From a virus: 36,368 nucleotides of DNA. How positions within the stretch are numbered: the stretch's first letter is position 1; each line of letters opens with the position of its first letter. Below are positions 2,401 to 14,538 of the stretch, piece by piece. The stretch spans positions 1 to 36,368 of the IMG/VR virus record IMGVR_UViG_3300024348_000125, one strand, 5' to 3'. Below the pieces are notes generated by a model. The model was not told where the DNA came from and did no database searches. It was given only the letters and a program-made list of their open reading frames with translations. Both the position numbers and the translations under genes were made by a program.

Positions 2401-3014
2401 TAATAGACCCCTGAAGTTGTGGTGACACCTATACCAGAGCCGCTATGTTCTGCCTTGTCTGCCATTGTTTGTATGTTGCGTATGGACTCTTTAAAAGCCG
2501 TCTGCCAAATACCGACACGCTCATCGTCATTTAAATAAGGAGACGCTTCCAGTAAAGCACCATACAACAATATGTCTGGGGCGTTCTCAGTAAACCAATT
2601 CTGCCCGTCTGCTTCATCTATTATACTGCCAATGTCTGCCCAGTAGTATAGCTCGTAATCAGTACTACTGTCAGGAGCAGGGTGTACTATAATTTCATTT
2701 GCTCTTCTTGAATATGTTGATGGTATCCCAGTGCCTGTTGTCTTTGACTGGTCTCTATATGAGACTCTTTTAAGACCTTTGTCTGGTGTGCCTTTTGCTG
2801 TGACGGACTTCATCTCCACATAATTAGAAGGAAGAGCCACCGCTTGGTTTGATGAAGCTACTGTTACTACAGCCTCCATAGGGGGAATGCGTAATTCCCT
2901 GTAGATGCGTAACTCTGCCAGTCTAATGAAGTCTGGAATTTGTGTTGTTAGGTCACTGCGGTCAAGCCAGTCTGCGACTGCTGCTTTGATGTCTGAGAAT
3001 GTACTTAATGCCAT
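2400..3014 (-). CDS. Head-tail adaptor protein (204 aa)
   Basis: The N-terminus (WLDRSDLTTQIPDFIRLAE, about residues 16-34, then RIYRELRI) is the signature I recognise in the phage adaptor family that bridges portal and tail in many podoviruses and SU10-like phages. VALPSNYVEMKSV at ~54-66 and the YELYYWADI segment near 121-129 also fit. Length of about 200 residues is normal for the family. It lies two genes after the capsid gene in transcription order, as expected for a connector. Start and stop overlap with neighbours. Expected location is the virion neck, between portal and stabilisation protein. Confidence 0.75.
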   Translation of the reverse strand: MALSTFSDIKAAVADWLDRSDLTTQIPDFIRLAELRIYRELRIPPMEAVVTVASSNQAVALPSNYVEMKSVTAKGTPDKGLKRVSYRDQSKTTGTGIPSTYSRRANEIIVHPAPDSSTDYELYYWADIGSIIDEADGQNWFTENAPDILLYGALLEASPYLNDDERVGIWQTAFKESIRNIQTMADKAEHSGSGIGVTTTSGVY

Positions 3015-3310
3015 TATAGTTTGCCCTTAGTTGTTCTAAAAGGTGAGTTCTCTGGGTTGTTTAACCATTCACGCATCCGTTCTTGGTTTCCCCATACACC
3101 CTCACGCATCATACGCTCTACTAAAATAAGGGGTATTCTTGCAACTCTGTGCTTGAATTCTGAATCCCCTTTGTAGGCGGTGTTACGGTTGTTGAATTTG
3201 AGTTTGTCGTTTCCGACTATAAGACTTTTAATTGCATCAGTGTCTTGTTCAGAGACTATTGTTAAGGAGTCATCTGCGTTCTGAATAATATTTGTTTTTA
3301 CTATTTCCAT
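3014..3310 (-). CDS. Conserved small late protein downstream of capsid (98 aa)
   Basis: A small mixed protein with the pattern EFKHRVARIPLILVERMMRE followed by W.N.ERMREWLNNPEN.PFRT. I have a sense of similar proteins between capsid and adaptor genes of T7-like and marine podoviruses, but know no function. A GTG at 3328 would add six residues but lies inside the capsid terminator hairpin; the ATG at 3310 just after the hairpin is preferred. The hairpin's 3' arm supplies the only G-rich stretch upstream, so translation may be weak or tied to read-through of that terminator. Confidence 0.65.
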   Translation of the reverse strand: MEIVKTNIIQNADDSLTIVSEQDTDAIKSLIVGNDKLKFNNRNTAYKGDSEFKHRVARIPLILVERMMREGVWGNQERMREWLNNPENSPFRTTKGKL

Positions 3311-9134: not shown

Positions 9135-9716
9135 CTAGTGTAGCTTGTCTTTCTCTTCCCTTCCGTTAGCGTCAGCTATATCAGTAGCATCATTAGCCCA
9201 TTGTATGTCAAAGTTCCTGTCTTCAACCACAACGTGTTGTTTAGTGTTCCAACCACATTGGGTCTTAAGCCAGAATGCTGTCATACTTGGACTGTCTCCG
9301 GATACTGCCATTTCATAGGCTACTCCTGCTACTCTGGCTGACCTCTTTTCTTTACCAATTGTAAGGTTATGCTGAAAGTACTTTGTAAGGGTAGCATTAC
9401 TAATACCCATTACCTTTGCTATTGTGTGCTGGTCAAGCCCAATAGTTACCATTTCCTCTACCTTACTATAGTCATCATCTGTAGGCTTATACTTAGAACC
9501 TCTCTTGTTCCTAGACTTCTTACCTCCAGCAACTCTAGTTTCACCTGCGTTGTCTATAGTTGGTCTGCCTATTTTACGCTCAATCTTAATTACAGCGTCA
9601 CTAGGTACAATGCCTGTAGCAGATGCCACAGCAAACTTAGCTTCTTCAATCAGTTCTTTCTCTAGCAGCTTAGCATCCTCTTTAGAGTTTACCTCTGCAA
9701 ATCCTTTCTTAGCCAT
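9135..9716 (-). CDS. terS: Terminase small subunit (193 aa)
   Basis: A helix-turn-helix sits at about residues 95-114 (LDQHTIAKVMGISNATLTKY), followed by the conserved pattern RSARVAGVAYEMAVSGDSPS and MTAFWLKTQCGW, which I recognise from phage small terminases. An N-terminal ~80 residues is basic and low in complexity. It is the first gene of the leftward late block, facing the AT-rich control region. There is no clear ribosome site before the ATG, unlike its neighbours, so its expression may be deliberately low. Expected role: recognises the packaging site on phage DNA and recruits the large subunit. Confidence 0.85.
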   Translation of the reverse strand: MAKKGFAEVNSKEDAKLLEKELIEEAKFAVASATGIVPSDAVIKIERKIGRPTIDNAGETRVAGGKKSRNKRGSKYKPTDDDYSKVEEMVTIGLDQHTIAKVMGISNATLTKYFQHNLTIGKEKRSARVAGVAYEMAVSGDSPSMTAFWLKTQCGWNTKQHVVVEDRNFDIQWANDATDIADANGREEKDKLH

Positions 9717-10072: not shown

Positions 10073-10095
10073 ATGTAAAAAAAATAATTTTACAT
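10073..10095. repeat. Inverted repeat ATGTAAAA / TTTTACAT
   Basis: Eight-base perfect arms (10073-10080 and 10088-10095) around a seven-base AT loop. With A/T runs in both directions it could be a weak bidirectional terminator or a protein-binding dyad separating late genes from the cassette. Confidence 0.45.
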
Positions 10096-10120
10096 AGAGG
10101 TGGGTTTCCCCGTTTTTAGC

Positions 10121-10273: not shown

Positions 10274-10373
10274 ACACCAAGGCAATTTTGTTTTTTATTC
10301 GTGGCGTGTGCGTGTGAATTTATATATCCCTCACTAATAACGATACAGCGCGAAGTTTTAAGCGTGGCGTTGA

Positions 10374-10395
10374 AAAAGCGTAACACTGTTACAAG
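10374..10395 (+). repeat. 22-base repeat with 13-base palindrome, copy 1
   Basis: The core GTAACACTGTTAC (10380-10392) is a palindrome with six-base arms. Including flanks, 22 bases are identical to 11205-11226. It ends 30 bases before the -35 of the promoter at 10426, a position suited to a regulator. Confidence 0.7.
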
Positions 10396-10425
10396 TTTAT
10401 TGTGTGCAAATAGTCCGTTATGCGC

Positions 10426-10455
10426 TTGACGTGTGGCCGTATGCCGTGTTAAAAT
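10426..10455 (+). promoter_or_regulatory. Sigma70-like promoter of the 10522 gene
   Basis: TTGACG (10426-10431), 18-base spacer, TAAAAT (10450-10455); five of six matches in each box. The gene starts about 66 bases downstream behind an AAAGGAAA ribosome site. Confidence 0.6.
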
Positions 10456-10521
10456 TCTTTTATGGCTTGCGCCCTGCGTGCCTATTTTATAAAACGCTAG
10501 GCAATCATAAAAGGAAATACC

Positions 10522-11055
10522 ATGACAAACAAGAAAAACACAAACAACGCAAAAACAATATACAACGCTGACTTGCCACCGCTTGACGCTGATTTCAAAA
10601 AAGAGCTTAATAGCTGGCTAAATGCTGATGACAAGGCAAAGGCAACCGAGAGCACACTCAGTGACCGCATACGCGGTTATATGGTGGATGGCTTAGCGGG
10701 CAAGCAACAACTTGAACAGGCCGCTTACTTTTTACACTTAGCTGGCAGAAGCGAAAGTTACCGTGCTCTAATTAATCGCCTTACTGCTGAGCTTTTCAAT
10801 AAAGGCAAAGTAAAGCAAATGGTAGTTATTAAATCCAGTCGCAAAGGCGCTAAAAAAGAGATAGTGCCAGTCGTTCCGCCTACTAAAGAGCAGGCCGAGC
10901 AAAAAATCGTTGACTTAGCTGAAAAGGCACGCGACCGCCAGCAGAAGCAGGCCGAAGAATACATGCTTTGCACATACAACACGCTTGACACATTGCGCGC
11001 TGAATTTGCCCGTATTGAAGCGCTTTTGACTGCTAAGCTGGCCAAGGCTTCATAA
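10522..11055 (+). CDS. Unknown protein in a self-contained cassette (177 aa)
   Basis: I do not recognise this protein. It is hydrophilic, mostly helical and charged, with an acidic/Pro N-terminus (YNADLPPLDADFKKELN), a middle segment VKQMVVIKSSRKGAKKE and a C-terminal coiled-coil-like helix (residues ~120-177). There is no membrane segment or enzyme motif. Its codons favour CGC, GCC and GCG in a way the neighbouring genes do not. It has its own promoter (10426), ribosome site AAAGGAAA, and a strong terminator 30 bases after the stop, and sits between the late and early blocks. These are the marks of a moron-type insertion expressed independently of the phage programme. Confidence 0.75.
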   Translation: MTNKKNTNNAKTIYNADLPPLDADFKKELNSWLNADDKAKATESTLSDRIRGYMVDGLAGKQQLEQAAYFLHLAGRSESYRALINRLTAELFNKGKVKQMVVIKSSRKGAKKEIVPVVPPTKEQAEQKIVDLAEKARDRQQKQAEEYMLCTYNTLDTLRAEFARIEALLTAKLAKAS

Positions 11056-11084
11056 CTCAATAATAGCGCCTAAATAAGCTTATT

Positions 11085-11107
11085 AAGCCCCTTAATTGGG
11101 GCTTTTT
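11085..11107 (+). terminator. Strong intrinsic terminator after the cassette gene
   Basis: AAGCCCC (11085-11091), loop TTAATT, GGGGCTT (11098-11104), ending in a TTTTT run to 11107. A perfect seven-pair stem. It isolates the 10522 gene from the early genes that follow. Confidence 0.88.
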
Positions 11108-11137
11108 AGCGCCTGCTGTTCTTGTATTCTCACAGGT

Positions 11138-11166
11138 TTGACAATGCAGATAAAAAAGCGGATAAT
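11138..11166 (+). promoter_or_regulatory. Strong sigma70-like early promoter
   Basis: TTGACA (11138-11143), 17-base spacer, GATAAT (11161-11166): perfect -35, five of six in the -10. It follows the cassette terminator and heads the early gene run starting at 11297. The second palindromic repeat lies about 40 bases downstream, within the leader. Confidence 0.75.
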
Positions 11167-11204
11167 GTTAGTATGAATCAAGTATTACGCGTGCAGGGAT
11201 AAAG

Positions 11205-11226
11205 AAAAGCGTAACACTGTTACAAG
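11205..11226 (+). repeat. 22-base repeat with 13-base palindrome, copy 2
   Basis: Identical to 10374-10395; core GTAACACTGTTAC at 11211-11223. Lies downstream of the early promoter, where a bound protein could block elongation or the transcript could form a small hairpin. The two copies bracket the 10522 gene with its promoter and terminator. Confidence 0.7.
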
Positions 11227-11296: not shown

Positions 11297-11485
11297 ATGA
11301 GAAAACTATCAAAACGACAAAAGAACATACTTAAAGACTTTACAAGCTATTACAGCTTTGACCAGTTGCCAGAAGTAACACAATGCCAAGTAGAAAGGGC
11401 AAATGATTATGAAAGCCTGCATACTGATGTAGGTATTTTTCTTTCAGATAATTACTATACAAACAGGGATAAACAAAATGCATAA
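11297..11485 (+). CDS. Small early protein (62 aa)
   Basis: A short protein starting MRKLSKRQKNILKDFTSYY, with NDYESLHTDVGIFLSDNYY in the C-terminal half. The pattern 'KKQK..L..F..YY...LP...........DYE.L..D...F' is familiar from small T7-like early proteins of unknown role. It is the first gene after the early promoter and overlaps the next gene by eight bases. The upstream AAAAGGGATAAACAAAAG has a plausible though distant ribosome site. Candidate host-takeover or anti-defence factor by position only. Confidence 0.7.
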   Translation: MRKLSKRQKNILKDFTSYYSFDQLPEVTQCQVERANDYESLHTDVGIFLSDNYYTNRDKQNA

Positions 11486-12092
11486 AGTAATAACATTCAA
11501 AGGCAAAAGACTGAGCCGTGCAAGGGTAAAGAATAATATTCTTAAAGTGTACAATAAGGCAGACGCGCACACCGATTGGTATGTTGATGCTCATGCTTTT
11601 TGTAAGGGATTGAGTATTAAATACAATAGACCGCTTAGTGTTGTTGTTGGTATTGTTTCTGCACTGTCACCACTAAAGACGTGGGATAAAAATAAAGAGA
11701 TAGCTGAATACTACTTGCAGACAAACAGCGTACTAAAAGGCGGTAAGTATATTAACTTTACTAAGCAGTGCGATAAAGTATTACAACTGGATAGGTGCTG
11801 GTTAATATGGAATAAGGTAACAGACGAGGGAATACAGTATATTCTTAAAGGGGAAAAGACAAAATCTTTCTACTTGAATATAATGCACCCATCACAGGAA
11901 TCAAAAGTCACAGTGGATAGACACGCTATTGCTGTGGCTTTAGGTAGAGTAGCAACAGACGAGGAACAAGCACTGACACCGCTTCATTATGCGTTCTTCG
12001 AGGACTGCTACATTTGGACAGCTAAGTTTCTGGGAATAAGACCGCTTATGTTGCAGTCTATTACTTGGGAAACGTGGCGTAATCTTAAATAA
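11478..12092 (+). CDS. Conserved phage protein with HhH-GPD glycosylase-like pattern (204 aa)
   Basis: A conserved phage early protein without an accepted function that I know of. Three segments line up with the endonuclease III (HhH-GPD) plan. VVVGIVSALSPLKTWDKNKE (56-75) sits where LLIAVLLSAQATD...NKA does, GEKTKSFYLN (125-134) where GVGRKTANVVLN does, and KVTVDRHAIAVALGR (143-157) where IAVDTHIFRVCNR does. Lys127 and Asp147 would be the catalytic lysine and aspartate. Their spacing of 20 is close to the 18 in endonuclease III. There is no C-terminal four-Cys iron-sulfur loop. A DNA base-excision or AP-lyase activity is my inference, not established. It is the second gene of the early block with ribosome site AGGGATAA. 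Confidence 0.75.
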   Translation: MHKVITFKGKRLSRARVKNNILKVYNKADAHTDWYVDAHAFCKGLSIKYNRPLSVVVGIVSALSPLKTWDKNKEIAEYYLQTNSVLKGGKYINFTKQCDKVLQLDRCWLIWNKVTDEGIQYILKGEKTKSFYLNIMHPSQESKVTVDRHAIAVALGRVATDEEQALTPLHYAFFEDCYIWTAKFLGIRPLMLQSITWETWRNLK

Positions 12093-13919: not shown

Positions 13920-14117
13920 ATGTCAAGTGAAGACACGGAATGGGAATTATTAGACAAGAGATTACAGGCTACTAAAGAGGTAATTAAGGCAGGGCATAGG
14001 GTCAATCAAAGAAGTACCCTAGAATCCAATCCTACGCCCTCTGAATGTACAATTGAGGGTTGTATGGACAGGATGATGGAACACCTAAGTGAATACTATA
14101 AGAATGGGGGTAAATAG
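13920..14117 (+). CDS. Small early protein (65 aa)
   Basis: A hydrophilic protein beginning MSSEDTEWELLDKRLQATKE with ECTIEGCMDRMMEHLSEYYK near the end. The AGAGGAGAATA upstream is a good ribosome site. The next gene follows two bases after the stop. It could be a small helical adaptor; I do not recognise it. Confidence 0.6.
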   Translation: MSSEDTEWELLDKRLQATKEVIKAGHRVNQRSTLESNPTPSECTIEGCMDRMMEHLSEYYKNGGK

Positions 14118-14118
14118 T

Positions 14119-14538
14119 ATGAGAAAGAAGAAGACATACACACTGTCAGATGGTAGTATTGTAAGTGCTCAAGATGTAGCTGACAAGGTGGGATGTAGGC
14201 TTAATACAGCGTACCTGAGATTGACTAAGCATTCAGATGTTGAGACTATATACAGCCCACTACAAGCTAACCAACGCAGGCGTGGGTACGGTACGCGTAA
14301 TGACTGGGTAGACAAACCAGCAACAGTTGTAATGGGAATACCTATAGACCCATCCTACATGGATGGTAGTCCAGACGGCTCGGGAAGTAAGGACAGGAAC
14401 GGGGTAAGGATGTCGTTCAAGGAAGCCAGTAGCCTAATGCGTTACCGCCAGCAACAAAGGGATGAGTGGCTACAGTCTAAGGGATGCAAGACAGAAGACG
14501 AGAACGACAGGGAACATAGTCTTAATGAATTTAAATAA
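14119..14538 (+). CDS. Helix-turn-helix-type early protein (139 aa)
   Basis: Starting at ATG 14119 (ribosome site GGGGGTAA; an earlier ATG at 14089 would overlap the previous gene needlessly), the N-terminus MRKKKTYTLSDGSIVSAQDV and the following ADKVGCRLNTAYLRLTKHSD form a likely helix-turn-helix (about 16-37). The middle is basic (ANQRRRGYGTRNDWVDKPA), the end carries FKEASSLMRYRQQQRDEWLQ. A DNA-binding regulator of the early or middle genes is a reasonable inference and it is a candidate to bind the shared intergenic element. Confidence 0.65.
   Translation: MRKKKTYTLSDGSIVSAQDVADKVGCRLNTAYLRLTKHSDVETIYSPLQANQRRRGYGTRNDWVDKPATVVMGIPIDPSYMDGSPDGSGSKDRNGVRMSFKEASSLMRYRQQQRDEWLQSKGCKTEDENDREHSLNEFK

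Follow-up and report, generated by a model that had tools for sequence, protein, structure and literature searches.

The gene at issue here lies alone between the late and early blocks of a phage genome, bracketed by two identical palindromes, and it raises the question of what such a unit contributes to the phage that carries it. The window, by which we mean the whole stretch of 36,368 nucleotides analysed, is the virus record IMGVR_UViG_3300024348_000125 of an uncultured podovirus. Podovirus structural genes extend leftward from the locus in a late block (small terminase start at 9716), while genes for a primase-helicase, a DNA polymerase, a Cas4-type exonuclease, a ribonucleotide reductase and RusA extend rightward, so that the location between the two blocks given in an earlier sequence-only reading is correct. 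That reading had also described a promoter-like sequence, a Shine-Dalgarno site and a terminator belonging to the gene alone, together with two 22-base palindromic repeats, and all of these are present (Table 1). The repeats are identical and lie 831 bases apart, the 6-bp arms of their core (GTAACA-C-TGTTAC) reach the central base, and a scan of the whole window with GTAACACTGTTAC returned them as the only sites with fewer than three mismatches. We propose, with a probability of roughly 0.7 (0.72), that the 177-aa product is a DNA-binding regulator, probably a dimer, that its operators are the two identical dyads, and that operator 2 is repressive. Computation shows that the dyads exist, pair exclusively with the cassette across relatives, co-vary with its protein and follow the early promoter; we infer binding by the cassette protein, its dimerisation and the repressive sign.

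Table 1. Features of the cassette locus, in window positions.
Feature	Position	Strand	Basis or remark
Promoter-like element TAAAACT-N14-TTATTA(G), directed leftward; a candidate for the late promoter of the terminase/structural operon	10334..10360	-	
Operator 1, dyad AAAAGCGTAACACTGTTACAAG, flanked by the leftward late-promoter-like element and by the cassette's own rightward promoter	10374..10395		exact 22-mer repeat; equivalent dyads in relatives
Cassette-gene promoter, sigma70-like TTGACG-18-TAAAAT	10426..10455	+	consensus match only, 10 of 12
Shine-Dalgarno-like AAAGGA	10510..10515	+	sequence
Cassette gene, 177 aa, proposed sequence-specific DNA-binding regulator	10522..11055	+	ORF, predicted structure
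Cassette-gene intrinsic terminator	11085..11107	+	hairpin AAGCCCC-TTAATT-GGGGCTT, then T; -17 kcal/mol, z -2.5
Early promoter, sigma70-like TTGACA-17-GATAAT	11138..11166	+	11 of 12; 1% of positions in the region score equally
Operator 2, second identical 22-mer	11205..11226		in the early transcript, from about +30 to +55
Start of the early operon, with a 62-aa ORF and the DUF7178 protein; proposed to be controlled through operator 2	11297..12092	+	

The protein itself offers few clues. Homologues of the window protein occur in identical contigs only, across annotated phages, cellular genomes and IMG/VR, and an operator scan of IMG/VR likewise gave nothing beyond identical copies of the window operator. 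Pfam, PHROG, PDB-sequence and fold searches with the window protein and with the cassette proteins of its relatives returned nothing significant, in agreement with the initial impression that the protein matches nothing, and profile-profile comparison of the window protein with the relatives' proteins detected no relation (best probability 2%). An AlphaFold2 model from one sequence (pLDDT 70, pTM 0.42) predicts three helices (residues 45-55, 58-74 and 77-93), then a beta-hairpin (100-115) and finally a single long helix that spans residues 122-176; this model had no match in the fold search and may be compatible with a winged-helix domain combined with a coiled coil for dimerisation. Since the window protein has no homologue beyond identical contigs and no detectable link to the relatives' proteins, the role proposed for it draws on position, architecture and the dyad pair. 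The model of the protein of cassette family c1 (11 sequences, pLDDT 71) consists of helices only, grouped around a conserved L-S-L-x-G-x-G-K-K motif, also with no fold match. The deviant codon choice previously noted for the gene is weakly supported: its GC content of 0.457 (z 0.9), GC3 of 0.469 (z 1.7) and codon score (z -1.8) fall inside the range of other phage genes, GC3 at the upper end, reaching the edge of that range and never passing it.

Because the window protein is confined to identical contigs, relatives were gathered through the large terminase, and the region upstream of the small-terminase gene, up to the early operon, was compared; seven terminase loci with the wrong extraction direction were left out, and 44 usable regions remained, window included, the relatives all being uncultured contigs and many of them incomplete. 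A gene of about 146-256 aa adjoining 2-4 dyad copies is found in 26 of the 44 regions (window included), and the other 18 have no cassette gene at the locus. By sequence, the cassette genes form the families c1 (9 members), c4 (8), c16 (3) and c28 (2), with L054, L068, L063 and the window as single cases; profile comparison joined c1 and c28 clearly (88.6%), and the link between c28 and L063 is suggestive (42%). The description of the gene as acquired thus holds in the sense that the same locus carries different families or none in close relatives. In one c28 phage, L059, the cassette gene (2556-3056) is inverted relative to that of L107; the dyads are unchanged (TAAC-N2-GTTA), and four of them lie upstream of the gene. 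In the pieces read of the distant relatives HTVC203P, HTVC010P, P12053L, ICBM2 and ctXG6705 and of two MAG contigs, repeated dyads were absent. The leftward element TAAAACT-N14-TTATTA, located some 440-640 bases 5' of the small terminase gene, occurs in 29 of the 44 regions, with or without a cassette, and in none of 34 control regions, and is probably a phage-specific late promoter. Separately, a 40-base non-coding stretch of the window (10074-10113) is about 88% identical in L052, L053 and L058, where the flanking DNA cannot be aligned.

The dyad sequence varies among these phages, and it is this variation that carries the argument for a protein-site pair. At least ten classes can be told apart: CGGAAC-N2-GTTCCG, (C)GTAAC-N2-GTTAC(G), CTCCGA-N5-TCGGAG, CAAGCAWTTAAWTGCTTG, ACGCAWTTAAWTGCGT, GCACTAC-N2-GTAGTG, TTAACC-N-GGTTAA, GGCGCGCGC, GCGTAC-N3-GTACGC, TAAC-N2-GTTA and the window's GTAACA-N-TGTTAC, as well as AAGACA-N-TGTCTT, one of whose two copies is imperfect. 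Repeated dyads did not appear in any of 34 shuffled regions and so are not due to chance. In the single cases the gene was chosen partly by its position between dyads, and the independent test of pairing is therefore given by the members of c1, c4, c16 and c28, families defined by protein similarity alone, in which repeated dyads are present in 22 of 22; the 18 cassette-less regions (60.5 kb) contain nothing that fits one of the 12 dyad patterns. Dyad classes do not mix within a phage, the exception being the broad c28 pattern, which overlaps the related TAAC sites of c1. Dyad similarity follows cassette-protein similarity when terminase similarity is controlled for (partial r 0.82, 0 of 2000 permutations) and is not associated with terminase similarity itself (partial r -0.19), and site specificity thus co-varies with the cassette protein independently of the terminase; the window class is known from one phage species. 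The c4 cassette of L100 (2265-2963) illustrates this at the level of domains: compared with L015 its N-terminal part is 89% identical and its C-terminal part 42%, and the operator half-site changes from CAAGCA in L015 to CACGCA in L100. By its sequence the L100 regulator is a natural chimera, or domain swap, and the divergence of the C-terminal part together with the operator change points to this part as the determinant of specificity in c4. The repeated AAGCCCC...GGGGCTT dyads of L027, L032, L041, L044 and L075 were discarded as operators, being intrinsic terminators.

Symmetric sites in transcribed regions might equally be thought to act in RNA, as leader hairpins through which the protein would exert translational repression or antitermination. 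Many copies do lie in transcribed leaders directly 5' of a Shine-Dalgarno sequence, and every copy can form a small hairpin, though that of the window is weak (-2.7 kcal/mol, z -1.1). An Rfam search found nothing. The centre of the dyads also speaks against this reading. Complementarity extends to the centre in all odd-centred classes, and a second pair is present in all even-centred classes, positions that are unpairable in an RNA loop; moreover, asymmetric centres occur in both orientations inside one phage (L050, L063, L088, L090, L100 and L107). Central pairs that an RNA hairpin could not form, together with flipped centres, point to double-stranded DNA bound by a symmetric protein, and we regard binding to RNA as improbable.

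The places of the sites suggest how a DNA-binding regulator would use them. In the relatives, one or two dyad copies lie 5' of the cassette gene and one lies between the cassette and the early operon, with the placement of operator 1 differing among phages. Across records there are 2-5 sites (two in the window, none with reversed-pattern controls), the extra copies lying directly before an SSB-type gene, a Cas4-type exonuclease, a small gene after ribonucleotide reductase and another early gene; orthologous early-operon sites are of the class of the local cassette. In 16 of the 21 phages compared (the window being one of the 16, and some of the 21 being closely related), a strong sigma70-like promoter (at least 9 of 12) precedes the early-operon dyad, which begins 23-40 nt beyond its -10. 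To judge from the sequence, an operator so placed would block promoter escape or early elongation. The cassette gene accordingly adjoins sites at its own and at the early promoter, the position expected in repressor-operator systems, and most likely encodes an autoregulated regulator that represses early transcription. In the mechanism we envisage, the regulator, probably as a dimer, would bind both dyads; at operator 2, just inside the early transcript, bound protein would block the start of RNA polymerase at the early promoter or its exit from it, and at operator 1, which separates the cassette promoter from the leftward late-promoter-like element, it would provide autoregulation and possibly control of late transcription. 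An earlier suggestion that a palindrome-binding protein regulates the gene came close, with the refinement that the cassette itself most likely encodes the predicted binder.

Several further observations concern the early operon. In L088, L056, L019 and L066 a longer hairpin, AAGGGATA-[operator]-TATCCTTT, has the early-operon operator as its loop and is constant across phages of different operator classes. A leader peptide 5' of operator 2 was considered for the c1 phages and rejected, as the frame is not open in L035 or in the window. The DUF7178 protein (11478-12092 of the window) is the first sizeable early gene and is an early gene in cobaviruses too; it is labelled 'glycosylase' in some mycobacteriophage records. 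Further along, the early ORF at 14089-14538 weakly matches two families, one of Ren-like exclusion proteins (phrog_16568, E 6e-5) and one of transcriptional regulators (E 5e-4).

The same distribution of sites bears on two other accounts. The sequence-only reading had raised the possibility of a moron-like or mobile cassette bounded by repeats and able to be lost by recombination between them, which would agree with the gene's own promoter and terminator and with a variable gene at a fixed locus. Such loss would leave a single repeat behind, and none of the 18 cassette-less relatives keeps one; identical sites in relatives also lie kilobases away, 5' of replication genes and other operons, and no recombinase family was found in the phage records examined. 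We consider mobility through the repeats very improbable, and the moron label fits poorly despite the promoter and terminator: the sites are shared with the early operon in the window and with replication genes in relatives, so that the cassette forms part of the regulatory programme of the phage itself. Palindromes near the gene of a proposed DNA-binding protein, with conserved non-coding elements close by, could also belong to a partition or replication-origin binding protein of the ParB or iteron type. Against this, the ten phage records contain no ParA-type ATPase (PF13614), and the sites are tied to promoters and operon starts, which makes a partition or origin role highly unlikely.

Of greater weight is the proposal that the protein is an early-to-late switch, activating the late promoter and shutting off the early genes in the manner of phi29 p4. 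The phage looks lytic: its early and late blocks diverge, and no gene of the window was recognised as coding for an RNA polymerase. In the window and roughly ten relatives the centre of operator 1 falls about 45-69 bp upstream of the leftward late-promoter-like element, and this element has a poor -35. The p4 protein of phi29 recognises inverted repeats placed between the early and late promoters, represses A2b and A2c and activates A3 (PMC3100819), and the likeness to the present locus lies in a proposed sequence-specific protein, inverted repeats in the corresponding place and the use of host RNA polymerase (PMC3100819). The p4 sites, however, are few and of the form CTTTTT-N15-AAAATG (PMC3100819), whereas the operators here are compact dyads, phage-specific, and also found 5' of distant operons. 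Operator 1 adjoins the late-promoter-like element on different sides in different families, lying downstream of it in c1; the element occurs also in phages without a cassette, the distances between operator and element show no helical phase, and several operators sit inside operons right 5' of a Shine-Dalgarno sequence, where activation is unlikely. A p4-like switch may apply but is in our view the less likely reading, and we return to the autoregulated repressor when placing the locus among known systems.

Immunity regions of the lambda CI/Cro type combine autoregulation, dimer-type operators and cassettes that are replaceable in similar phages. The locus resembles them in its proposed autoregulated dimer-type operators and in cassettes swappable between otherwise similar phages, and differs in that no HTH family match, no divergent CI/Cro pair and no lysogeny genes were found. 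Closer in layout are the Cluster A mycobacteriophages, whose repressors (L5, TipsytheTRex) block elongation at intergenic sites and co-vary with those sites (PMC9283540, PMC6550527). The likeness takes in a gene of repressor size, an operator located at the early promoter with additional sites in short gaps between genes, co-variation of sites with the repressor, and C-terminal parts that diverge and are linked to specificity. The Cluster A stoperators, in contrast, are asymmetric 13-mers, 20-30 per genome, in one orientation and bound by a monomer (PMC9283540, PMC6550527), whereas the phages studied here have 2-5 symmetric dyads per record in either orientation and do not show the asymmetric 13-bp form. 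The cassette proteins are also unrelated, the N-terminal HTH and Stoperator domain being undetected in the Pfam, PHROG, PDB and fold searches. Moreover, Cluster A phages carry integrase or parABS genes (PMC9283540, PMC6550527), and we found no integrase, resolvase or ParA family (PF00589, PF00239, PF13614), and hence none of these lysogeny or prophage-maintenance genes, in the window and nine relative records, many of which are fragments. A terminase search through the contigs of 84,980 cellular species genomes gave two distant matches only, at 51-53% identity. By analogy, the simplest account is that the cassette works like the Cluster A immunity repressors with dispersed operators, while not being a member of that family.

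Our findings bear on how related phages of this kind may deal with one another. Repressor-operator pairs diversify fast in temperate phages and there set the immunity groups. In the phages compared here operator and protein vary in step in an otherwise nearly unchanged phage, so that relatives would be mutually insensitive to each other's regulator, and the exclusive pairing of protein and operator in otherwise similar phages suggests selection for such insensitivity, which may serve superinfection exclusion in lytic growth or an unrecognised dormant state. The same signature at one locus in phages with no recognised integration genes points to a part for regulator incompatibility in lytic co-infection as well, or to such an unrecognised dormancy. 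We put forward, tentatively and as less probable than not, the broader idea that a large group of uncultured phages that never integrate carries an immunity-like locus, in which numerous unrelated or extremely diverged DNA-binding proteins of undescribed folds are swapped together with matching dispersed operators and keep co-infecting relatives orthogonal or let them exclude each other during lytic growth. The locus also offers about ten natural protein-site pairs, including the L100 domain swap, for the study of a new DNA-recognition domain.
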